This document shows, piece after piece, positions 11,900 through 37,890 of a stretch of DNA of 64,000 bases. Numbering within the stretch: position 1 is the stretch's first letter; each line of letters opens with the position of its first letter. The stretch covers positions 1 to 64,000 of the forward strand of contig NZ_JACJSP010000013.1 of NCBI RefSeq assembly GCF_014698235.1, written 5' to 3'. This DNA comes from Limnothrix sp. FACHB-406 (GTDB lineage Bacteria; Cyanobacteriota; Cyanobacteriia; CACIAM-69d). The notes under the pieces are model-generated. The model was not told the DNA's origin, searched no databases, and saw nothing but the letters and a program-made list of their open reading frames with translations. The position numbers and the translations under genes were made by a program.

Positions 11900-13255
11900 C
11901 TAGAACGCTTCGCTCAGATCTGCTTCATCTAACTCGTCAGTGGATCCCCCAGTAATTGCCCCCGCTTCCTCCAGCTTTTGGCGCACGGCCAACTCCATTT
12001 CTGCCGCGATCGCCGGATTTTCCTTCAAATATTGAATAGCGTTGTCACGCCCTTGGCTGATGTTTTCGCCCTTGTAGCTATACCAAGCTCCCTTGCGCAC
12101 CAAAATTCCGGTGGATTCAGCCAAGTCCACTAAGCAGCCGATCGAGGAGATGCCTTCGCCAAAGATGATGTCAAATTCTGCGATCCGGAACGGCGGCGCG
12201 ACTTTGTTTTTGGCGACTTTGACCTTGGCCCGAATCCCAAACTCTTCGGTTCCCTTCTTCAGGGTTTGAATGCGGCGAATGTCCAAGCGCACCGACGCAT
12301 AGAACTTGAGGGCATTTCCGCCCGTGGTGGTTTCCGGGCTGCCGTAGGTGACTCCAATTTTTTGGCGCAATTGGTTGAGGAAAATCACCGTGCAGCCCGA
12401 TTTACCGATGTTGCCGGTAATGCGCCGCAGGGCGTGGCTCATGAGGCGGGCTTGGCTGCCCACTTGGGCCGCGCCCATTTCTCCTTCAATTTCCGATCGG
12501 GGAACCAAGGCGGCCACCGAGTCCACCACCACCAGGTCGATCGCGCCCGATCGCACCAGTTGATCCACCACTTCCAGCCCCATTTCCCCCGTGTCCGGTT
12601 GGGAAACCAGCAGATTATCAATATCCACCCCAAGGGCCTTGGCATAAACCGGATCCAAGGCATGTTCTGCATCCACAAAGGCCGCAATGCCGCCCGATCG
12701 CTGTACCTCCGCGATCGCATGGAGTGCTAGGGTCGTTTTTCCGGAGCTTTCAGGGCCATAAATTTCCACCACACGGCCCTTGGGAATGCCGCCGCCCAGG
12801 GCCAAATCCAAGGTCAAGGCCCCGCTGGGAATGGTTTCCACCCGCATTCGGGCCGCATCTCCCAGCCGGACGATCGCCCCTTTGCCAAAGCTGCGTTCAA
12901 TCTGCTGAACCACCAGCCCCAGGGCTTTTTCCTTTTCCTTGCTAATTTCCTTGGTCGGCCCGTCTTTGGCGGCGCTCTCTTTGGCCGACTCCTTAGCCGC
13001 TTCCTTAGCGTCCTTGGATCCTTTAGCGCTGCTGGCGGATTCCTTGGCGGTGGCCGTCTTCGCCGTGGGGTCAGAATTTGCGGATGCGTTGGAAGCCATA
13101 GTCGCCTGGGGGTCAACGGTGATGGAAGATTTTCTGCCCGATCGCACCGTGGCCGGCTCCGGCAAGCCCTGATCGGCCGGGGTGCCTGCTAGGGGAGCGA
13201 TCGAAGCGGCTTCTATTGTAGGAGGAACTGGAGTCGCAACGGAGGCAGCGGCCAT
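11900..13255 (-). CDS. recA: Recombinase RecA with long N-terminal extension
   Basis: Strand-exchange ATPase for homologous recombination and DNA repair. The core is canonical: Walker A GPESSGKT near residue 167, the L1/L2 region ([34 protein letters not shown]), and an acidic tail [12 protein letters not shown]. Before the core ([16 protein letters not shown]) there are about 110 residues instead of the usual 10-15: first Pro/Ala-rich, then Ala/Lys/Glu/Ser-rich ([20 protein letters not shown]). I place the start at the ATG at 13255 because a promoter lies at 13288-13316 and GAGG stands 9 bases before it. The ATG at 13099 would give 399 residues and still leave about 55 extra residues, but has no visible ribosome site. 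Confidence 0.96.
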
Positions 13256-15616: not shown

Positions 15617-15991
15617 TTATTTTCGGGATTTTTTCTCGGCTTTCTTCTCAGCTTTTTCCTTTGACTTCTTGCTGGGCTGATTGCCCTCCAGCGGCCCTTC
15701 TACCAGTGCATTAAACCCATAGATTTCCCGAGTTCCGGCAAAAGGAACCAGCACCACCGTTTTCTCATCACCCGGTTCAAAACGCACCGCCGTTCCCGAG
15801 GGAATATCCAAATGGGTTCCCCGAGCCGCCGCGCGATCGAACACAAGAGCTTCATTCACTTCAAAAAAATGGAAATGGGAGCCAACTTGAATTGGGCGAT
15901 CGCCTCGGTTTTCCACCGTGATTGTCACGGGCGATCGGCCCACGTTCAATTCAATCTCGCCAGGTTCAACAATTAATTCACCGGGAATCAT
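15617..15991 (-). CDS. ureB: Urease subunit beta
   Basis: Structural subunit of urease. The family core [19 protein letters not shown] to [10 protein letters not shown] covers the first 103 residues and contains the conserved [10 protein letters not shown] segment. The start is the ATG at 15991, with AAGGAA upstream; a TTG at 16021 is rejected. The protein then continues with about 20 residues composed almost wholly of Lys, Glu, Ala and Ser ([17 protein letters not shown]), a basic tail not needed for the fold. ureA ends 81 bases upstream. Confidence 0.96.
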
Positions 15992-16072
15992 GGCGTTTTT
16001 CCTTATCGCAAATGATGACAATCATCCTAGGAGCCGATTGCGAATCGATCCCTACCAAAGCCGCAACCGAAA

Positions 16073-16375
16073 TTAACGAATGGGATCATGCACGGTCACC
16101 AATTTCGTGCCGTCGGGAAACGTCGCCTCCACCTGCACATCGTGGATCATCTCTGCGACCCCTTCCATCACCTCATCTCGGGTGAGCAGCGTTGTCCCCT
16201 CCGCCATCAGTTCCGCCACGGTTTTGCCGTCTCGCGCCCCTTCCAAAATGGCCGCCGTCAGATAGGCCACGGCTTCCGGATAGTTGAGCTTCAGTCCGCG
16301 ATTTTTGCGGCGCTCGGCCAGCAGCGCGGCGGTGAAAATTAGCAGCTTGTCCTTTTCTTGGGGCGTGAGTTGCAT
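16073..16375 (-). CDS. ureA: Urease subunit gamma
   Basis: 100 residues, the standard length. [20 protein letters not shown] at the start, [27 protein letters not shown] and [14 protein letters not shown] are all hallmark segments of the gamma subunit. The frame is open well upstream of 16375 but that part overlaps ureD in another frame and is not UreA-like. It follows ureD with 110 bases between the genes and precedes ureB on the same strand. Confidence 0.97.
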
Positions 16376-16485
16376 AGGGCGATCGCGCAGGTCATCTTGC
16401 CAATACTCTGTTGTTGGTTGTACCGCGATTTGTCTAGCAGGCCACCGATTGATTGCGAAGATTTTGGGTTTCGGGGCGATCGCAG

Positions 16486-17367
16486 CTATAGCGGCCAAAA
16501 CCGGGAGACGATCGCCGGGCGATCGCGCTGGCTGCGGCGCACCAAATCCCACACCTGCCAGAACCAGCGCCGCGCCTCACTGACCGAATGGCCCCGATAG
16601 CGACAAAGCAGTCCCGTTTGCAGCCGCGTGATGCCGCAATCAACCCGATCGCCTGTGGGCAGGTGCGATCGCGCTTCCGTAATCAGCTCTTTCGGGATTT
16701 CCTGGCCAATCCAAGCCAGTGTCCCGACGATCGGGCAACCGGCCAGCCCATGGGAGCCGTCGCGGGTGGCCGGGTCGGTCGCGTCAATTCGTTGGGGATC
16801 GAGCCACACCAACCGATCGCCCTGCCACACTTCCAGGCGCGATCGCCACTCGCCGCAGCCGTAGCGCTCACCCCCGGCCGTGCGCCCCAGCCGGACAATC
16901 TCACTCCCCAGCCAACTGGCTCCGGCCGCCAAGTCAATGCGCGATCGCTGCTCATAGAGCGCGCCATCAAAAATAATCGTCTCTTGCGGCAACCATTCCA
17001 GATGCGCCCCTTCACCTACCCGCACCCGCACCGACTGCTGGGCAAACCGCCCGGCCGGGTCAACCAGCGATCGCCCCCGACTGCCATAGATCTTGGCCGC
17101 CGACACCGTTGTCACCAGGGCCGCCGTTTCCGGTTCCAAGTCCAACGAGATCGATAGGCGATCGCCCCCGACCATCCCCCCCGCCACATGCAACATCGCC
17201 GCGTGGCAAACCGCTGACCCCTCGGGATAAAAGGGCCGCTGAAATTGCAGGGGCGATCGGGTTTTGGCCTGAACCTGGGTGCGATCGCCCGATCGGGCAA
17301 ACCGCAACGCGAACGATCCATGCCAGGTGCGATCGGTTTCGGGCGTTGGCTGGGAAGCGACGATCAC
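16486..17367 (-). CDS. ureD: Urease accessory protein UreD
   Basis: Chaperone that binds apo-urease and recruits UreF/UreG during nickel insertion. About 293 residues. Family segments seen: [44 protein letters not shown] and [11 protein letters not shown]-like sequence. I set the start at the GTG at 17367, because it overlaps the TGA of the upstream Uma2 gene (GTGA) and has GGAG 8 bases before it, a classic arrangement for translational coupling. ureE, ureF and ureG are not in this window. Confidence 0.93.
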
Positions 17368-17942
17368 GATGTTTTCTCCGGTTGCGAACCCACTTTCAGC
17401 CAGCCGAAAATCTGCTCCGCCGTCAGGATCAGGGGCAAGTCCGGCAAGCAAGGCAAGGGAACTGTCCGCCGATGCAGTAACGGTTGGCGATCGGGCAAAA
17501 AGGTGAGGACTGATCGATCCTGAGGATCAACCAACCAAGCCAACTGGCTGCCAAACTGCAAACTGTGCAGCAGCTTATCCATCACTCGATTGGTCGGCTG
17601 TTCGGGCGACAAAATTTCGATGATCCAATCTGGAGCCGCCAAGAACTGATCGATCGGCTCACCCTGATCCGTCAGCGCCACTCGTTCCCAAGCAATCACC
17701 GCCACATCGGGAACGATCGAGTGATCGCCAAAGGTACAGCGCAACTCCGGCATGGCTGTGTAGCGATCGCCCACCGCGTTGATCGCCCGAATCAGGCGTT
17801 TTTGCAATAAAGAATGGCGAAACTTGGGCATGGGTTTTTGGACTGCCCGGCCATCGAGATATTCCCAAGCGGGCGAATCTTCGAGATCGGGGCGATCGAG
17901 AAATTCCGCCAGGGTGGCGATCGGGGTGATCGAAACCGTCAT
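17364..17942 (-). CDS. Uma2-family (DUF820) putative endonuclease
   Basis: 192 residues of the Uma2/PD-(D/E)XK type that is greatly expanded in cyanobacteria. The nuclease motif is visible as SIVPDVAVIAWE (Asp) followed by PDWIIEILSPEQPTN (Glu, with Ser in the usual Lys/Ser place) and the helix NRVMDKLLHSLQFG. Function is not established for the family. The stop overlaps the ureD start by four bases, so the two are co-translated. ATG at 17942 preferred to GTG at 17948. A related gene lies divergently at 18127. Confidence 0.85.
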   Translation of the reverse strand: MTVSITPIATLAEFLDRPDLEDSPAWEYLDGRAVQKPMPKFRHSLLQKRLIRAINAVGDRYTAMPELRCTFGDHSIVPDVAVIAWERVALTDQGEPIDQFLAAPDWIIEILSPEQPTNRVMDKLLHSLQFGSQLAWLVDPQDRSVLTFLPDRQPLLHRRTVPLPCLPDLPLILTAEQIFGWLKVGSQPEKTS

Positions 17943-18126
17943 AGGCACGCAGCCAGCGAACAGCGCCGCGAGATTGGTTCTGTTGATTGGATTCTATTGC
18001 AAATTCTGGAATGGGATTGATGCTGAATGGCTGATTTCCTATGCCCCACCTACCATAAGGCAAGCGGCCGATTCTCCATCATGATTGAGATGTCGCCCCG
18101 ACCCATTGAGCAGTAGCAATTCGATC

Positions 18127-18693
18127 ATGGTTGCCACGATCGCCCCGGGTTTATCGCTTGCGGAATTTTTACAGCAGCCGGACATTGATGACTCGCCGGC
18201 CTGGGAGTTTCACGATCAAGGGCCAATCCAAAAACCGATGCCGGGTGGAAAACATAGCCGTCTGCAAATTCGCTTAGGTGGGGCGATTAACGCTATTAAT
18301 TCACCCTGGGAAGCGCTAACGGAGATGCGCTGCACCTTTGGCGATCGCTCGATCGTGCCTGACCTGATCGTTGTCCGCGAGACCGACGTGCCGATCGATC
18401 AGGCGGGTGAAATTTCGGACTTTGGCATGACGGCGGCTCCTAACTGGGCGATCGAAATCCTGTCGCCAGCCCAGGGTGAAACCCGCGTGGTGCGAAACCT
18501 GTTGCACTGTTTACGCCACGGGAGCCAGTTGGGCTGGTTGGTGATGCCGCGAGATCGGGTGGTGGTGGTGTTTTTGCCCGATGCGTTGCCGCTGGAGTTG
18601 TCGGGGAGCGATCGCCTGCCGGTGTTGCCGGACTTGCCCTTGGCACTCACCGTAGATGAGTTATTTAGCTGGCTCAAGCGCCGGGAACCGTAA
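18127..18693 (+). CDS. Uma2-family (DUF820) putative endonuclease
   Basis: 188 residues, clearly a paralogue of the divergent gene at 17364-17942: DIDDSPAWEFHDQGPIQKPM matches DLEDSPAWEYLDGRAVQKPM, and MRCTFGDRSIVPDLIVVRE carries the same Asp motif, followed by APNWAIEILSPAQGETRV. The C-terminus (PVLPDLPLALTVDELFSWLK) is also shared. The ATG at 18127 starts the conserved part. The two genes form a divergent pair with about 180 bases between their starts. Function unknown. Confidence 0.85.
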   Translation: MVATIAPGLSLAEFLQQPDIDDSPAWEFHDQGPIQKPMPGGKHSRLQIRLGGAINAINSPWEALTEMRCTFGDRSIVPDLIVVRETDVPIDQAGEISDFGMTAAPNWAIEILSPAQGETRVVRNLLHCLRHGSQLGWLVMPRDRVVVVFLPDALPLELSGSDRLPVLPDLPLALTVDELFSWLKRREP

Positions 18694-18703
18694 CCGGTTG
18701 ATC

Positions 18704-18774
18704 GCCCTTATTTCAAATCGGCGATCGCTCCTCGGGCCATTTCGGCGATCGCTCGATCGGTGGGTTTTGGTAAC
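18704..18774 (-). pseudogene. Copy of the last codons of chlD
   Basis: Read on the minus strand this piece gives [22 protein letters not shown]-stop, against [22 protein letters not shown]-stop at the true chlD end (19486-19550). The DNA agrees over the first 58 bases with two differences; further differences are mostly synonymous (TTA/CTG, CCA/CCG). The copy also includes the six bases after the stop. Between the copy and chlD lie a lipoprotein gene and small palindromic repeats. Confidence 0.85.
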
Positions 18775-18869
18775 TGCGGAATTTGTTATGGGAGATTGGT
18801 AATAGGAGATCAACCGGATTTAGGTGGCCGTTTTGGAAGGAATAATCGCAGTCATCCAGCAGCCAAGCC

Positions 18870-19331
18870 ATGATCAGAACATTGTCTAAAACCTACTGCT
18901 TAGTGGGAGTTCTTTTGGTCAGCGCTTCTACAATTCTTCATTCTTGCAGCGCCACAAATAAACCCACAGCTCTTGCTTCACCTTCTCCTAGTTCTAGCCC
19001 CGCTCTTTCGACTCCTAGCCCTAGCCCTAGCCCTAGCCCTAGCCCTAGCCCTAGTCCTTCGATGGAGCCTGGCTATGTAACAGCAGCGGAATTTGGTGAT
19101 AAGTGGCCCGTTGCCAATGCAGAGTCAGCGATCGTGTTTTGTGAAGCGCCAAAAGCGGTTTATATCAAAATCAATGAGGCAACTTATCCACTCAACGGAC
19201 AAGCAATGCAAGGCTCAAAACCGGATTGGAGTTGGCGTAAAAAGATTCCTCTGGAAGGTTTCCCGGGAGAATTCTCATTAGCTGACGTGACTCCTCTCAT
19301 TGAGCGTGGTTTACAACTTTGCGCTGAATAA
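18870..19331 (+). CDS. DUF2511-type lipoprotein with Ser-Pro repeat linker
   Basis: 153 residues. The N-terminal hydrophobic stretch (YCLVGVLLVSASTILHSC) ends in a lipobox-like cysteine near residue 26, so a membrane lipoprotein is likely. A linker of Ser-Pro dipeptides (residues about 38-64) follows, encoded by a hexanucleotide repeat. The C-terminal 85 residues (VTAAEFGDKWPVANAESAIV, YPLNGQAM) resemble the DUF2511/YebY domain with one Cys near each end. Function unknown. It is bracketed by the chlD 3' end and a second copy of that end, so it looks acquired. Confidence 0.75.
   Translation: MIRTLSKTYCLVGVLLVSASTILHSCSATNKPTALASPSPSSSPALSTPSPSPSPSPSPSPSPSMEPGYVTAAEFGDKWPVANAESAIVFCEAPKAVYIKINEATYPLNGQAMQGSKPDWSWRKKIPLEGFPGEFSLADVTPLIERGLQLCAE
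19013..19057 (+). repeat. Hexanucleotide coding repeat (CTAGCC)n
   Basis: About seven near-exact ccctag units inside the lipoprotein gene, each coding Ser-Pro. The unit length keeps the frame, so copy number can vary without breaking the gene. Confidence 0.9.
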
Positions 19332-19352
19332 TTACCAATCAAAACCCAATCA

Positions 19353-19383
19353 TCGTAGGGCGTACGGCGGTACGCCCCTACGA
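19353..19383. repeat. REP-like palindrome
   Basis: TCGTAGGGCGTAC and GTACGCCCCTACGA form an imperfect inverted repeat of the same family as the perfect one at 58500-58527. The flanks (accaatcaaaacccaat before, ttttgattgattgggg after) are themselves roughly inverted, so the whole 19335-19402 may be one small folded element. A second palindrome-like piece (taggggcgcaacg, ttgcgccctc) follows at 19402-19426. Confidence 0.75.
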
Positions 19384-19485
19384 AATTTTGATTGATTGGG
19401 GTAGGGGCGCAACGCTTTGCGCCCTCTGACGATGTGATTTTGAAACCGATCGCTGGGTGTGCTGCGGTACGAGCAACAATTGCCC

Positions 19486-21531
19486 TTATTTCAAATCGGC
19501 GATCGCCCCTCGGGCCATTTCGGCGATCGCCCGATCGGTCGCTTTCGGCAGGTGGTAATACTTGCCGCCCGCCGTTTCCGCCAGCTCCTTGGCGAAACCG
19601 GTGGAAACGAATTTGCTTTGGGTGTCAATTACCAGCAGCTTGATGTTCAGGGCGCGGATTTTGCCGGAAATATCCAGCAGCTCTTGCTTCACATCCGGTT
19701 TCTCATCCGGTTCCATCGGCTGGCCGAGCGATCGCGCTAGGGGCACATTCCCCCGACCGTCCGTAATCGCCACGATCACCACTTGCCCCACATCCCCCGA
19801 CTGGCGGGCGTTGGTTCCCACGCGCACCGCCTGGGTCAAGCCATGGGCCAAGGGCGAGCCGCCGCCACAGGGCATGGTTTCCAGCCGTCGCTTGGCCGCC
19901 GAGATCGATCGCGTGGGGGGCAACAGCACCTCTGCTTGCTCACCCCGGAACGGAATCAGCGACACCTGATCGCGGTTTTGGTAAGCCTCCGTCAGCAACC
20001 GCAATACCGCGCCCTTGGCCGACTGCATCCGGTTCAGGGCCATCGACCCCGACGCATCCACCACAAACACCACCAAGGCTCCGGCCTTCCGGGCCAGGCG
20101 CTTGGCCCGCACGTCGCTTTCTTCGACGAATACGCGGCGACCCGTTTCGCCCGCAGCGGCGGCTCGGGTGCGGCGGGCTTTTTGGTAGGGCGCGGCCGAT
20201 CGCAGGGTGGCATCGACGGCAATTCGGCGCACGGGGCCACGCGGCAAGACGGGTTTGATGTAGCGCCCCCGATCGTCCGAGAAGATGATCGATCGGCTGC
20301 CGGAGCTACCGCCCGATCGCTGGGCCGTGGTTTGGGCAAACAACAGCACCGACGGATCCATCACCACCCCTTCCGGGTCGAACACGAATTCCTCGGGGAT
20401 GGCGGGCGGCTCGTCCGGTTGATCCTCGTCTTCGTTTTCGTCTTGATCTTCGTTTTCGTTGTCGGTTTCGTCGTCTTGCTCTTGTTCCGCTTCCGGCTGC
20501 TGTTGCGGCGGCGGGGGCGGCGGCGGCTGTTGCTCGTCCGGCGGCGTTTCAATCACCGTGGCCCGGGGCACAATCACCAACTCCACCGCCACCCGCAGGT
20601 CGTCGGCATTCACCGCCGTTCGCCCATCGAGGGCCGCGTGAGCCTTGGCAACCCGCACCGCAAACAGTTCCGCCCGATGACCCTGCACCCGGCCGCGCAC
20701 CGCTTCTTGCACCAAATATTCCAACTGCTCGCGGCTGATGGTCACGTCCTTCAGCCATTCGCGCGCCAGCAGGATTTGGGTTTTCAGACCGTCCAGTTCT
20801 TCGGCATATTGCCCCAGGAAATCTTGGGGCGATCGGGCATAGCCCACGGCCCGATCGACCACTTCCACCCGCTGATCTAACCCCAAAGCCCCATCGGCGG
20901 ACAGGGCGATCGCAATTCGATCGAGCAAATGCTCCCGCAGCGGCCCCTCTTCCGGGTTGTAGGTGGCGATCAACAGGGCTTGGCAGGGGTGGGCAAAGCT
21001 GATCCCTTCCCGCTCAATTTGGTTGCGCCCTTCCCCGATCGCCCCCAACAGCAGGTTGGCGATTTGGTCATCGAGCAAGTTCAGCTCATCGACATACATC
21101 ACGCCCCGGTTCGCCTCCGCCAGCAAGCCGGGCTGAAACACCGTTTCACCGCGCTTCACGGACTGGCCCACATCCACCGAACCCAGCAGCCGATCTTCGG
21201 TCACGCCCAGGGGAATTTGCACAAAGGGCGCGGGAATCACTTTCCGGGGCACTTCGCCGGTAAATTGCAAGCCGTCTTCCCAGCGATCGGGCGCGTCCGG
21301 GTCGCAATTGCTGAGGGAGCCGTCCACCACCTCGATCGGGGGCAGCAGGGCATGGATCGCCCGGGCCATCACCGATTTGGCCGTGCCGCGCCGACCGGCG
21401 ATCGCCACGCCCCCCAGGCCCGGATCGATCGCCGCCAACAGCAAAGCCATTTTGATCGACTCTTGGCCGATCACCGCCGTCAGCGGAAAGGCGATCGGGT
21501 CTCGGGTTTGGAGCGGCGCAGTAACGGACAT
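19486..21531 (-). CDS. chlD: Magnesium chelatase subunit D
   Basis: AAA+ subunit of the enzyme inserting Mg into protoporphyrin IX, the first committed step to chlorophyll. 681 residues. Walker A-like GRRGTAKS at 46-53, a Walker B region [14 protein letters not shown], then a Pro/Gln run and a strongly acidic linker (about residues 345-390), then an integrin-like I domain with the MIDAS motif DASGSM at 492 and [10 protein letters not shown]. Order and length match cyanobacterial ChlD. The ATG at 21531 starts the conserved [12 protein letters not shown]. The last 23 codons are duplicated at 18704-18774. Confidence 0.96.
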
Positions 21532-21731
21532 GGCGGGCGAAAAAGGGAAGTTCTTATGATTAGTCTTGATGCTTTTCAGGATATCAGCGCAACGGGACAG
21601 CCGGGCCGGTTCGGGCGGCTGGAGGTTGCATCTGAATGGAACCCAGCTCGCTGAATCTTGCACAATGGTGTTAGTGACCATTGGCAAAATTCCGGGTCAT
21701 CAATGGTCAAGGCGCTGAGGAGTTTGAGCTA

Positions 21732-22190
21732 ATGACTTCCAAAATGATCGCCCCGATCACCTACGACAGCGACTATTACGGCTGGGTACAACAACAGGCC
21801 GAATTGTTGCGATCGGGGCAGTTTGATCAATTGGATTTGGAGAATTTGTTAGAAGAGGTTGAAAGCTTGGGGCGATCGGAAAAGCGAGCTTTAACCAGTC
21901 AGATTATCCGGCTCTATTGGCATCTGCTGAAATGGCAATACCAACCCCAAAAGCGATCGAACTCTTGGGCATTTTCCATTGAAGATGCGCGGGATGAAAT
22001 CTTGGAATTACTCGACGAAAATCCCAGCTTTCGGCGTGATCTTGCGGATTGGATCGTCAAGAGCTATGAGCAGGCCCGCAAAAAAGCCGCCCGAGAAACG
22101 GGATTACCAATTGATACGTTCCCGATCGAGCCGCCGTTTACTTGGGAATTGGCGATGACCCTGCCGATCGAATATGTTGCTCGGGATTAG
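21732..22190 (+). CDS. DUF29-family protein, copy 1
   Basis: 152 residues, mostly helical. The DUF29 signature is seen in YDSDYYGWVQQQAELLRSGQ, LDLENLLEEVESLGRSEKRA and LYWHLLKWQYQP. The C-terminal part ends FPIEPPFTWELAMTLPIEYV. DUF29 proteins are small, helical, of unknown function and multiply in cyanobacteria. This gene and the next are tandem paralogues, with only 11 bases between them. The ATG at 21732 was chosen as the start of the conserved part; the frame is open from 21681. Confidence 0.85.
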   Translation: MTSKMIAPITYDSDYYGWVQQQAELLRSGQFDQLDLENLLEEVESLGRSEKRALTSQIIRLYWHLLKWQYQPQKRSNSWAFSIEDARDEILELLDENPSFRRDLADWIVKSYEQARKKAARETGLPIDTFPIEPPFTWELAMTLPIEYVARD

Positions 22191-22201
22191 GATGCCACCG
22201 C

Positions 22202-22708
22202 ATGGAAATACAGACGACTATCGAGTCGATCGCCCCGATCACCTACGACAGCGACTATTACGGCTGGGTGCAGCAGCAGTCCGAACTGTTGCGATCGGGG
22301 CAGTTTGATCAATTGGATTTGGAGAATTTGTTAGAAGAGGTTGAAAGCTTGGGGCGATCGGAAAAGCGAGCCTTAGCCAGTCAAATTACCCGGCTCTATC
22401 TGCATTTACTGAAATGGCGGTTTCAACCCGATCGCCGATCAAATTCTTGGGTGTTTAGCATTCGTTCCGCCCGCCGTGAAATTCAACAGTTACTCACCGA
22501 CAATCCGAGTTTGAAACCCTGGCTTCCCAGTGCGATCGAGCAGGCCTATCCCCAAGCCCGCGAGCAAGCTTTTGTGGAAACAAAATTGCCCTTGAAGACG
22601 TTCCCGATCGAGCCGCCGTTTACCTGGAAATTGGCGCTCACGATGTCAATCGAGTATACCGATCAAGATGCTGATCAAGATATGGATCAAGATCAAAAAT
22701 TGAGTTGA
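22202..22708 (+). CDS. DUF29-family protein, copy 2
   Basis: 168 residues, same family and architecture as the preceding gene. The N-terminal 55 residues are almost identical in protein and DNA to copy 1, whereas the C-terminal half has diverged (RRSNSWVFSIRSARREIQQL against KRSNSWAFSIEDARDEILEL). The end carries extra acidic DQD repeats (DQDADQDMDQDQ). Probably co-transcribed with copy 1 and convergent with the asparaginase gene. Confidence 0.85.
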   Translation: MEIQTTIESIAPITYDSDYYGWVQQQSELLRSGQFDQLDLENLLEEVESLGRSEKRALASQITRLYLHLLKWRFQPDRRSNSWVFSIRSARREIQQLLTDNPSLKPWLPSAIEQAYPQAREQAFVETKLPLKTFPIEPPFTWKLALTMSIEYTDQDADQDMDQDQKLS

Positions 22709-34073: not shown

Positions 34074-34196
34074 AGTAATCTCCTCTATCAATCAGTTTCA
34101 CACTGTCATTTTGGTTAAAGTTTAATACTTAGACTTTAACAACAGGATGACACCCTCATCTTCCGATCGTAGCTTCTGGCATTGTCAGGATCTATC

Positions 34197-34242
34197 AATT
34201 CGGCAAGACGATCGCCCGTGGAACCCAGCCTGCCCGATCGCC
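34197..34242 (-). pseudogene. Copy of the last codons of the M14 peptidase
   Basis: Read on the minus strand it encodes GDRAGWVPRAIVLPN-stop, against GDRAGWVQRAIVLPNS-stop at the true end of the peptidase gene (35466-35516). 41 of 46 bases agree and most differences are synonymous. No upstream part of the peptidase is present here. The antitoxin and EF-G domain IV genes lie between the two copies. Confidence 0.8.
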
Positions 34243-34261
34243 CACCAGAACCAACGCAGTG

Positions 34262-34552
34262 TTAGGCAATGGGCACAACATGGAGACGTAACCCAAGCAC
34301 CTGTAAAACCTTGAGAACCGTAGCAAACTCTGGATTACCTTCGATTGACAAAGCCTTGTAGAGACTTTCACGCCCCAACCCTGTTTCACGGGCAATCTGG
34401 GTCATCCCTTTAGAACGGGCAACATCTCCCAACGCTGCTACGACTAGGCTCGGATCACCCTCTTCAAGAGCAGCTTCCAGATAAGCAGCGATATCTTCCT
34501 TGGTTTCCAGATGATCTGCTGCATCCCAAGAATGAGTTTGAACGATCGCCAT
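34262..34552 (-). CDS. Antitoxin of the HigA-like addiction-module family, without toxin
   Basis: 96 residues with an XRE-type helix-turn-helix: GMTQIARETGLGRESLYKAL, and the family ending FATVLKVLQVLGLRLHVVPI. The N-terminal YLEAALEEGDPSLVVAALGD is diagnostic for the addiction-module antidote group whose toxin is a RelE/HigB-like killer encoded just upstream. Here the upstream 110 bases hold only a REP-like palindrome and no toxin gene, so it is an orphan. GGGAG precedes the ATG. It may regulate its own promoter or protect against an incoming toxin. Confidence 0.85.
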   Translation of the reverse strand: MAIVQTHSWDAADHLETKEDIAAYLEAALEEGDPSLVVAALGDVARSKGMTQIARETGLGRESLYKALSIEGNPEFATVLKVLQVLGLRLHVVPIA

Positions 34553-34664: not shown

Positions 34665-35171
34665 CTAAGTTGGAGAAATAGGGATAATTGCATTCTCTAT
34701 CGGATCGATCAAATATAATGCCTTTTGATACATTAGTTGTTTCATAACATCAACGAACCATTTGCGAGCGCAAATTTCAAAAGCTATAATGCTTGAATCC
34801 ACATCATGGTAAGCACCGTCTACAAGTTCAACTTCTATGTTCATAATAGGATATCTGTCAAAAATTTCTGATTCAATCGCTTCAGATAAGCCTCTTTGAA
34901 TTCCAGGAATACATTCAGAAGGAATTTCAATCCCTAACTCAATTGCTCCAGATAAGCCTCTTTGAATTCCAGGAATATATTCAGAAGGAATTGCTCCTCC
35001 TCTTATACGATCAATAAAAGTAAATCCAGCGCCAGATTGATTTGAACGTAATCTAGCTACTATTTTGGCGTATTGCCTGGCACTACCGCTTGACTTTTGA
35101 TGCGTGAACTCATGTTCCACATCTACATCATCGGCAATTTGTACGTAATAAGCCACATCTATTTCGCTCAT
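34665..35171 (-). CDS. Stand-alone elongation factor G domain IV-like protein
   Basis: 168 residues that match EF-G domain IV and nothing else of EF-G: VDVEHEFTHQKSSGSARQYA (loop at the start of the domain), GFTFIDRIRGGAIPSEYIPG, IMNIEVELVDGAYHDVDSSI and AFEICARKWFVDVMKQ. The tip histidine of the YHDVDSS loop is kept. There is no GTPase domain, so it cannot be a translocase on its own. Residues IPSEYIPGIQRGLSGAIELG are repeated as IPSECIPGIQRGLSEAIESE, a duplicated helix. AGGAAG precedes the ATG. Similar short proteins exist in cyanobacteria as far as I recall; function unknown, binding to ribosomes or tRNA mimicry is a guess. Confidence 0.82.
   Translation of the reverse strand: MSEIDVAYYVQIADDVDVEHEFTHQKSSGSARQYAKIVARLRSNQSGAGFTFIDRIRGGAIPSEYIPGIQRGLSGAIELGIEIPSECIPGIQRGLSEAIESEIFDRYPIMNIEVELVDGAYHDVDSSIIAFEICARKWFVDVMKQLMYQKALYLIDPIENAIIPISPT
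34884..34992 (-). repeat. 66-base in-frame duplication inside the EF-G-like gene
   Basis: Two near-identical 43-base blocks begin at 34884 and 34950, period 66 bases or 22 codons. They differ by one base in the part compared (Cys/Tyr codon). The duplication adds one extra helix to the domain. Confidence 0.88.
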
Positions 35172-35465
35172 ATATTTCTTCCTCAGGAGCGTTTTTGCAA
35201 ATAAGGCGGAATGTCAAGGGTGCGCTGAACTTTAATCTGTAGCGTGACTCATAAACTGGTCAACTTTTTTGCGTCGGCTCCAACGTTCTTGTTATTTCAA
35301 CAGAGTCCCCCAAGATATGGGCGTGCCAGAAGCCTGAGCTTATCCATCACTATATTGCCGCCTCTAGCAACTCATGTCCTCAATCACGGTGGTCGAAGCG
35401 ATCGCAACTCCTCAAATAACCCTGTCTAGCTGTTAGCCTGTCGTGGTTTCTGAGATTGTAAAAAT
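35172..35465. other. Intergenic end of the island behind the M14 peptidase
   Basis: 294 bases between the start of the EF-G-like gene and the stop of the peptidase. It should contain the promoter of the island genes. No gene, terminator with T run, or tRNA is seen. Confidence 0.35.
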
Positions 35466-37160
35466 TTACGAATTTGGCAAGACGATCGCCCGTTGTACCC
35501 AACCAGCCCGATCGCCCCGGGCCGTGAGATCCACCACCATTCCTGGTTCGCCACGCACCAGCCAAACCACCCGCGATCGATCGTCCGTCGGATCCATGTG
35601 GTCGTAATAGGGCGTAGTCGGTTGGTGCGATCGCCCCGCCAGATGACCCAAACTCACTTCCGGTTGACCGCTGATCAGCTCCGCACCCGGCGGTAGGGCG
35701 ATCGCCGCGCGACAGGGTTGCACCGCCCCCTTTTCGATCGCCTTTTGCGTGCCATTGGTCGGCAGCCAGCCCGTGTTTTGCACCACCCACTCCACTTGGA
35801 ACAGCCGATCGCCCAAGGATTGCGCCGTGGCCTTCACCGGTTCCAGGCGCGGCGAAATCAGCAATTGCCACAGCAGCCAGCGGGGAAACCGTTCGATTTC
35901 TCGTTCCAACAGGTGAGCCGGTGGGTTGCGCCAGGTGCAAATTTGGTTCCAGCCGCCCAGTTCCACCTTGCCCAGTTGCGGATGCTCCCAGGCGTACCAA
36001 TCCACATAGCCGCGCCCGTCCAGCACCTCATCGTTCCACTTCAGCAGCGCCAAATCTTCCTCGATCGGGTGGTCGTCCAGCCATTCCAGCAGTTTCGGCG
36101 TTTTCACCCCCGCCGCTTGGGGCAAGTTCCACAGCTCCACCGTCCAGGCAAATAGCCCCCGCTCCTCATAGCACCAATCGTCAAAGGCTCCGGTCATCAC
36201 GTTTTTCGGATGGTCGCAGTAGCCCTCAAACACGCTGGTGGCGGGGTAGTCCGTCAGTTCCGTGCCCTTTTGCCCGATCGCCCGGTAATTCAGCCAATCC
36301 GCTTGGGGCAATTCCATATCGGTGGCGTGGCTGTAGGGACGCAACAGCAGGCCGCCAAAGGTGTGAAAGGCCACGGCGGCGTTCAGGTTGGGGTGATGGG
36401 CAATGAAGTCCGCGATCGCCCGCGTTTCCGGCTCCGAGGTGGGATAGTTGCCTGCGCCGGTCTGTTCCGGTTCCGGTCGCCACTGCATCGGGAAATTGCG
36501 GTTTAGATCCAACCCTTCGATCGGGCGTGGCGTGGTGATCGTCGCGCCGTCGTAGCGATCAATCCGGCCCTCCGGCAGCAGTCGATAGTAAGTGCCGCCG
36601 GTTTCGATCGGGTCGCGCCGCACCAGCAACCGGGGATCGCGATCGGACACTTTCCAGGCCCCATTCGGATCGGGCACACGCATCCAAAGGATCCGCCCGT
36701 CCCCATCGATATCTTCCATTTGCAGTTCGCTGGGGCCGCCCGCCAACCGATCGCCCGGATAGGGTCGAGTGCTCGATCGCACAAATTTGGGGCGATCGGC
36801 CAGGGCCAGCTCGGCTCCGTCGGGATTCACGCGAGGGCAAATATAAAACGTCCGCGAATCCAGACAGCGGGTAACGTCCGGATCGCTGCCGTAGTGCTTT
36901 GTCAAAAAGTCGAGGAGATAGAGGCAGGCCGTGGAAGGCGCAAGTTCCGTGGCGTGGATATTGCCATCCACCCAGAGGGCTGGCTTGTGGCGATCGGGCC
37001 CCGTCTCGCTATTGGTGATGGTTAGTAACCAAATATCCCGGCCCTCGTAGCTGCGGCCAATCGATGCCAATTGGACAAGCTGCGGAAATGCGGCCGCGTA
37101 GCTCTGCAAAATCTCCGACAGTTCCGCATAGCGGTAGAGACGATCAAAAGAAACCTGACC
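35466..37160 (-). CDS. M14-family zinc carboxypeptidase
   Basis: About 564 residues. Zinc ligands are visible as GNIHATELAPST (His and Glu of HxxE) and, 180 residues later, AAVAFHTFGG (third His). The catalytic Glu is in LFAWTVELWNLP. Between them lie the substrate-binding Arg/Asn block PIEGLDLNRNFPMQW and CPRVNPDGAE. The C-terminal 150 residues form an extra beta-rich domain (LFQVEWVVQNTGWLPTN). No signal peptide is evident. The ATG at 37160 begins MGQVSFDRLYRYAELSEI; an ATG at 37205 is possible. Its final codons are duplicated at 34197-34242. Confidence 0.92.
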   Translation of the reverse strand, partial: GQVSFDRLYRYAELSEILQSYAAAFPQLVQLASIGRSYEGRDIWLLTITNSETGPDRHKPALWVDGNIHATELAPSTACLYLLDFLTKHYGSDPDVTRCLDSRTFYICPRVNPDGAELALADRPKFVRSSTRPYPGDRLAGGPSELQMEDIDGDGRILWMRVPDPNGAWKVSDRDPRLLVRRDPIETGGTYYRLLPEGRIDRYDGATITTPRPIEGLDLNRNFPMQWRPEPEQTGAGNYPTSEPETRAIADFIAHHPNLNAAVAFHTFGGLLLRPYSHATDMELPQADWLNYRAIGQKGTELTDYPATSVFEGYCDHPKNVMTGAFDDWCYEERGLFAWTVELWNLPQAAGVKTPKLLEWLDDHPIEEDLALLKWNDEVLDGRGYVDWYAWEHPQLGKVELGGWNQICTWRNPPAHLLEREIERFPRWLLWQLLISPRLEPVKATAQSLGDRLFQVEWVVQNTGWLPTNGTQKAIEKGAVQPCRAAIALPPGAELISGQPEVSLGHLAGRSHQPTTPYYDHMDPTDDRSRVVWLVRGEPGMVVDLTARGDRAGWVQRAIVLPNS

Positions 37161-37890
37161 CATGGGTGTTCTGTGTTCTTGGCCCAGCCCGACCAGAGGA
37201 TGCATCGTGAATCACCATACCCGCCCATGCGGGGCTTGATCGGGATGCCGATTGACGTGAATTGACGTAAATCGACATGAAGACGTAAATCAAAAACGAC
37301 TAACGCGAGATCTATGCCTGATCAAAACCCAATCAAAACCCAATCATGACCAAACCAAGGCTCATGCCGCCGGTTTGGGGCCGGTTGGGGGGAAATCAAA
37401 CCCGGCCGGATTGTTCACCAACCAGGGCGATCGTGGCTCAGGAAGGGATGCCAGCCTTTGGATTCCAGCACTTTAACACCTCTATGAGGGGTCTTGCCCC
37501 CCATTGCCTCCACCCTTGTCGCAATTCCCGTACCCGCGCGATCGCGCCAGGCTATACAGAATCCTTTAGATTAGTTTTAAGGTTGTAAACATTTATTCAC
37601 AGTTTCCCACCCCCTAGCTCAAAACATCGGTACTGATTTGGGGCTAAGGAGCCGCTGTGAGCCTGTTGCTAGCCCATTGTTGGGCTGTTGACTTGGTTGA
37701 TGACGAATCCCCGGGATCTGTCCATGGATCCATTTATCTGGCTTATTTGGATCCCTTGGTCTGTTCATTTGGTCTGTTCATTTGGTCTGCTCACTGCAAT
37801 CTGCCCATGATGACCTTTGGTGATTGCTCCGCCACCACGAGCCAACCCCGTCCAACTGCGTAATCTTGCCCTCTTGCCCCTCTCTGCACC
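37161..37890. other. Intergenic region upstream of clpC
   Basis: 730 bases between two divergently read genes. It contains a direct repeat atcaaaacccaatc (37323 and 37335) and three near-copies of the 13-base unit ggtctgttcattt at 37758-37796. The AT-rich part 37555-37600 is the best place for the clpC promoter. No gene is recognised. Confidence 0.4.

Follow-up and report, generated by a model that had tools for sequence, protein, structure and literature searches.

Some integrative elements restore the 3′ end of the gene that they target. Other insertions generate long target duplications: these were described in Helicobacter pylori, where the inserted DNA often includes restriction-modification genes (Nobusato et al. 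2000, as relayed in PMC1643837, PMC3031569, and PMC4978471). In a survey of insertion hotspots, Oliveira et al. (2017) reported that mobility genes are missing from many of them and that the flanking core genes show recombination (PMC5635113). And in E. coli, the ends of linear DNA can be ligated, and the resulting circles can enter the chromosome by a single crossover; this combination of partial degradation, ligation, and single crossover was about 10 times more common than homology-facilitated illegitimate recombination (PMC3240628). Here we describe an insertion at the 3′ end of chlD, which is essential and serves chlorophyll synthesis, in the cyanobacterium Limnothrix sp. FACHB-406 and compare it with these systems.

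A repeated gene end encloses a lipoprotein gene

We analyzed a window of 64,000 nucleotides (contig NZ_JACJSP010000013.1, positions 1 to 64,000). In this window, the last 20 codons of chlD, its stop codon, and the next 7 nucleotides are present twice on the same strand, at 18701–18770 and 19479–19548 (repeat D2). The two copies are 70 nt long, 91.4% identical, and 778 bp apart, and their local alignment has E = 2e-24. An earlier note, made by reading this DNA, had already pointed to a repeated chlD end in the same orientation, and the repeat is real. The limits that the note gave for it (23 codons plus 6 nt, 18704–18774) were off by 3–4 nt at the ends. The note was also right that the DNA between the copies holds a DUF2511 lipoprotein gene, on the strand opposite to chlD, and REP-like palindromes. 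The features of the locus are:

18127–18693, plus strand: Uma2-family gene (PF05685), the old downstream neighbor of chlD; it directly follows chlD in the congener L035
18701–18770, minus strand: copy 1, the relic left by the old 3′ end of chlD; it adjoins the Uma2 gene, as at the empty site of L035 (blastn block and alignment to L035)
18771–18869, no strand: Uma2-proximal part of the insert, about 100 bp, without a match in the congeners
18870–19331, plus strand: cargo, a DUF2511 lipoprotein-like gene of 153 amino acids with a PSPS repeat (PF10709, E = 8e-9)
19352–19478, no strand: chlD-proximal part of the insert, common to the congener L036; it overlaps the REP-like palindromes at 19339–19443 (blastn, alignment, and inverted repeat I4)
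19479–19548, minus strand: copy 2, the present chlD 3′ end (20 codons, stop codon, and 7 nt of repeat D2), identical to L036 at 68 of 70 positions
19486–21687, minus strand: chlD (magnesium chelatase subunit D; Pfam VWA, AAA lid, and Mg_chelatase), intact, with its 3′ end replaced

The DUF2511 gene is the sole gene in the insert, which has no integrase and no restriction-modification cargo. We found no match for the lipoprotein on plasmids or among solved structures, and no RNA families in the insert. The palindromes belong to a REP-like family that is dispersed through the genome. The insert has a lower GC content than the DNA on either side of it (0.45–0.52, versus 0.58–0.70 for most of chlD). 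The insert does not have transposon-type ends, that is, terminal inverted repeats or a short target duplication: its boundary is the 70-nt direct repeat, and its inverted repeats are the internal palindromes. We saw no clear homology between the start of the relic and the end of the insert. Past the relic are two Uma2-family genes and ureD. (On the other side, upstream of chlD, two adjacent and similar genes at 21746–22030 and 22228–22512 are a tandem gene duplication, with 285 bp at 83% identity.)

The DNA sequence of chlD is 91.8% and 90.4% identical to the genes of two congeners, and the closest named chlD is that of Limnothrix sp. CACIAM 69d (98% protein identity). When identity to the congeners is followed along the chlD of the window, there is no clear switch, or breakpoint.

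The site without the insert

The earlier note had suggested looking for an uninterrupted junction of chlD and the Uma2 gene in related strains, and L035 (Limnothrix sp. CACIAM 69d) has it: there, this Uma2 gene comes immediately after chlD. Positions 15696–18770 of the window form a single blastn block to L035 (9041–5977) that ends inside the chlD tail of L035. Because this block runs into the chlD tail, the copy at 18701 is the former terminus of chlD. On the other side, positions 19352–21625 form a single blastn block to L036, at 92% identity, which spans about 127 bp behind the chlD-side copy. Searching the two congeners for the DUF2511 part of the lipoprotein gave no homologue (only proline/serine-rich regions match).

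L036 lacks both the lipoprotein gene and the first Uma2 gene. Since the chlD-proximal 127 bp are common to L036, the insertion may be older than the split between L036 and the strain in the window, and the insert may then have been lost in L036. At 12144–12680 of L036, where the first Uma2 gene is absent, the second one is truncated, and several REP-like palindromes are nearby. This state suggests a deletion across the former insert.

We also considered that the insert is old and that it was lost precisely from L035, by recombination between the repeats. Direct repeats permit such a loss, and the chlD-side DNA that L036 has in common with the window fits an old insert. We doubt that this happened, and it would shift only the date of the insertion: the relic beside the Uma2 gene would still mark the end of chlD before the insert.

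Other gene-end relics in this genome

We scanned 1.26 Mb of this genome (in pieces), with 847 open reading frames of at least 130 amino acids, for repeated gene ends. Six gene tails were repeated downstream and two gene heads were repeated upstream, along with one mid-gene repeat; across the 847 reading frames, no repeats were in the opposite placements or inverted. This orientation control (6 + 2 versus 0) implies that gene-end repeats are not due to chance. Together with the E value of 2e-24, it rules out a chance or HIP1-driven match between the copies of D2. (Five of the six tail cases are counted below. The sixth, a DUF262-type gene whose weak copy lies at a distance of 27 bp, could simply be repeated locally.)

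At a second site in the window, the 3′ end of a carboxypeptidase-like gene is duplicated around two cargo genes:

34167–34243, minus strand: relic of the 3′ end of the M14-type gene, 1.2 kb downstream (repeat D4)
34262–34552, minus strand: cargo, an addiction-module antidote protein (PF21716, E = 1e-33)
34665–35171, minus strand: cargo, a stand-alone EF-G domain IV protein (PF03764, E = 2.4e-28)
35441–35517, minus strand: present 3′ end of the M14-type gene (repeat D4, 77 nt, 81% identity)
35466–37205, minus strand: carboxypeptidase-like gene of M14 type (typed from its sequence, not by a family scan), with its 3′ end duplicated

In the congener G002, the end of the M14-type gene has left two relics, one after the other. 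We found no such relic in the stretch of G001 that was compared, which has a DNA-methylase-like reading frame downstream. (The EF-G domain IV gene also contains an internal tandem repeat of 64–66 bp, at 34863–34992.)

Behind ileS, on contig C1 of this genome (G000; 286000–294300), there is an ORF of 263 amino acids, a predicted cytosine methyltransferase (named from sequence motifs), and a relic of the end of ileS, 41 nt long. In G001, this site is empty: the ileS end and the DNA that follows the relic are contiguous (700 query bases, 95% identity). The last bases of the ileS relic match the empty site, unlike those of the gene itself; the 5′ part of the relic resembles the gene's own copy.

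Further inserts in this genome are at the tail of a TPR gene and at the heads of proS and a hydantoinase-like gene. The proS site (contig C1, 262843–265575) is a mirror image: 110 bp around the start of proS are repeated upstream, at 94.5% identity, and the repeat encloses a nucleotidyltransferase/HEPN-like gene pair.

chlD tails across cyanobacteria

With the last 52 residues of ChlD as the query, we searched 388 genomes from the class and 217 from one family. A short second copy of the chlD tail lies just downstream of the gene in G000 (this genome), G288, G294, G335, G356, G362, G391, G429, G431, and G434. G217 also has one, provided that its contig is circular, and G564 has a weak match at the DNA level only. 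(G397, with two distant weak matches, and G424, with one match on another contig, were left out of the count.) Seven of the chlD cases are in a single genus, of which 17 genomes were searched; its named members are Dolichospermum and Anabaena. As a control, we used the tail of glnA in the same 217 genomes, which gave a clear adjacent case in G517 and a possible one in G490. Among 877 gene ends in 80 chlD loci, one weak relic of a gene other than chlD passed the filters, besides the chlD case at L113; the chlD case at L090 was flagged as a paralogue because of its long repeat. Judging from these searches, relic formation is a general process. Relics of chlD are enriched relative to one control gene (glnA), for the most part within one genus. 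We reject the idea that chlD is the sole target: ileS, the M14-type gene, glnA, and others have the same anatomy.

Besides chlD in the window, four occupied sites have a relative with the empty site: ileS and the chlD sites of G288, G429, and G431. In G288, transaldolase follows the relic, while in PCC 7702 it follows chlD itself. G429 and its empty-site relative G365 have a helicase neighbor in common, and G431 and G135 have another neighbor in common.

The cassettes seem to have moved between strains, with the chlD end as their edge. The chlD genes of G356 and G288 are about 90% identical, while their cargo is mostly 98–100% identical, starting from just past the stop codon, and their downstream neighbors differ. 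G429 and G431 have the joint between insert and relic in common but not the genes behind it. And an AAA gene is 94% identical between G391 and G431, which belong to different genera, while their chlD is 89% identical. The excess of cargo identity over chlD identity, the common joints, and the differing neighbors point to movement between strains; later rearrangement of the downstream DNA is a less simple alternative.

Over the tabulated sites, the cargo is often restriction-modification, toxin-antitoxin, or defence-like (part of it was scanned with family models and the remainder was judged from translated frames). No integrase was recognized in the examined cargo of the related sites. At L113 and L090 (G356 and G335), and in G288 and G362, the chlD-linked cargo includes a pair of GmrSD_N (DUF262) and RiboL-PSP-HEPN genes, with a PADLOC match to NsnA, as well as a protein that matches BnzB; these are candidate defence systems. 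A DUF262-HEPN pair is also directly behind chlD in G423, G564, and G392.

Allele-like divergence of tails and relics

We tabulated 17 cases with a gene tail, an insert, and a tail relic (5 in the 1.26 Mb of this genome, 11 for chlD elsewhere, and 1 for glnA), not all of which are independent, as some have a cassette in common. Comparing each gene's own tail to the relic gives 109 synonymous and 47 nonsynonymous differences, or a synonymous share of 0.70. The expected share is 0.23 for random change and, by our own estimate, about 0.37 for neutral decay of one copy. (In G431, the TPR gene, and ileS, there are too few differences to show a synonymous excess.) The counts of 109 and 47 indicate that the copies were diverged functional alleles before one of them became a relic. 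The earlier note had read the two chlD ends as coming from diverged genomes instead of a fresh duplication. The codons of D2 agree with this (4 synonymous differences versus 1 nonsynonymous), and the 17 cases agree strongly. A fresh tandem duplication is rejected: the copies are 91% identical with a synonymous excess, not near-identical with decay in one of them.

In 11 of the 17 cases, the repeat ends at most 11 nt from the stop codon, which is where alleles with unrelated downstream DNA would cease to match. Measured from the stop codon, the repeats start anywhere between −21 and −266, and no motif or core is common to the relic starts or the junctions of the tabulated cases. Some relics look mosaic. 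In G391, the relic ends like the chlD tail of the sister species G392, including the stop codon and the bases that follow it, while the gene's own tail differs. In G356 and G288, the relics begin with bases that both genomes have in common (cassette-derived) and continue with host-like sequence.

Proposed mechanism

We propose that a donor fragment was captured by its homology to the gene end, in the simplest case after circularization and by a single crossover; this is the best of the mechanisms that we considered and is probably correct. The donor DNA would be a fragment from a diverged relative, with a chlD 3′ end, REP-like DNA, and the lipoprotein gene. It would start inside the conserved gene end and run into unrelated DNA, and it would be captured via the shared end. 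Joining the ends of the fragment would form a circle, and one crossover at the 3′ end of the recipient's chlD would integrate it. chlD would take over the incoming end, so that the gene stays intact, and the recipient's old end would be pushed 0.78 kb downstream, where it would form the 70-nt relic beside the Uma2 gene, starting at the fragment border. The agents would be those of housekeeping recombination, without an integrase. A one-sided homologous event combined with an illegitimate event would be an equivalent route. The earlier note had also proposed that foreign DNA with its own chlD end recombined here. Our proposal retains this, but with the roles of the copies assigned differently: at 18701 is the end that belonged to the recipient and was displaced, and the incoming end is the other copy. 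The sequences show the anatomy, the empty site, the recurrence, the allele-like divergence, and the mosaic tails in relatives; the donor, the route of uptake, and the circular intermediate are our inference, with the mosaic relics as an indirect sign of a circle.

Our proposal predicts that the target gene stays intact, that relics start at random positions and can be mosaic, that the repeats run to the stop codon, that the inserts are small, and that no integrase takes part, and we observed each of these features. However, the homology at the gene ends is 40–230 nt with 5–23% divergence, which is a poor substrate for recombination. Our proposal is also weakened by the relic in the window, which is identical to its own copy, to L035, and to L036 at 64 of 70 positions each; 70 nt are too few for a codon tree or for assigning the copies to lineages. 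Recombination between long identical repeats should remove the insert; this may explain why the survivors are short or diverged.

Homology-facilitated illegitimate recombination is a serious rival, although we think it unlikely. In this scenario, linear DNA would form a homologous joint in chlD and a non-homologous joint in the tail, and the relic would derive wholly from the recipient. The resulting anatomy would be identical, the process is documented in naturally competent bacteria (PMC3240628, PMC2884548), and an illegitimate joint fits relic starts that are varied and motif-free. But the relics of G356, G288, and ileS look mosaic. Also, every relic is shorter than about 360 nt, yet an illegitimate joint could fall anywhere in the gene.

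It is less probable still that the target was truly duplicated upon insertion, as in long target duplication, with both copies coming from the recipient and diverging later. This would fit the repeats of G431, of the TPR gene, and of glnA in G517, which extend far past the stop codon with high identity, and in G356 and G288 both copies are host-like. However, neutral decay should give a synonymous share near our estimate of 0.37 instead of the observed 0.70, most of the repeats end at the stop codon, and in G391 the gene's own tail and the relic belong to different lineages.

Finally, it is very unlikely that a small non-autonomous element integrated site-specifically, using an att site within the 3′ end of chlD and an integrase that acts in trans: classic elements do restore the 3′ end of their target, and chlD was struck repeatedly, but no integrase was recognized in the examined cargo, repeats that start from −21 to −266 have no common core, and ileS, glnA, the M14-type gene, and others show the same arrangement.

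Comparison with known systems

We tentatively suggest that cassettes without an integrase, and with pieces of the target end on both sides, might dock recurrently at the chlD 3′ end in cyanobacteria, with housekeeping recombination moving defence and toxin-antitoxin genes. (In a limited literature search, we came across no account of insertion at chlD, though such accounts may exist.) If so, any strain with chlD could receive these cassettes, whatever lies downstream. Small inserts without an integrase or a transposase are a large share of bacterial gene turnover. The scar at a gene end reveals the place of entry, the order of events, and the distance of the source, and it makes such events countable in any genome. 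Because inserts with defence-like cargo recur at chlD, nature offers a test of whether immunity genes can spread between genera through short homology at a single conserved gene.

As with integrative elements of the kind that rebuild the end of a target gene, the incoming DNA brings a replacement gene end. Unlike those elements, the inserts have no integrase and no common core, and the length of the repeat varies.

Our findings resemble long target duplication in H. pylori, so far as the accounts above describe it, in that an insert found in one strain is bounded by long direct repeats of variable length (here 70 nt) with a single copy at the empty site (here L035), and in that the cargo can resemble restriction-modification genes (here at ileS). 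In contrast to those accounts, the repeats described here are on gene ends and, over the 17 cases, diverge as alleles do instead of being fresh copies. Also in contrast, the cargo includes toxin-antitoxin, defence-like, and lipoprotein genes, and one target gene is used across several genera.

As in the hotspots of Oliveira et al., variable cargo lies beside a core gene, mobility genes are absent, and exchange occurs via the core gene. But those authors proposed a double crossover with core genes on both sides (PMC5635113), whereas here a single core gene is involved, both arms are provided by its end, and the event leaves a relic.

As with homology-facilitated illegitimate recombination, and with circles that enter by a single crossover, one-sided homology captures DNA, and the crossover duplicates the homologous segment (PMC3240628). 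Those systems are known from laboratory constructs, while here we infer the process from natural insertions.
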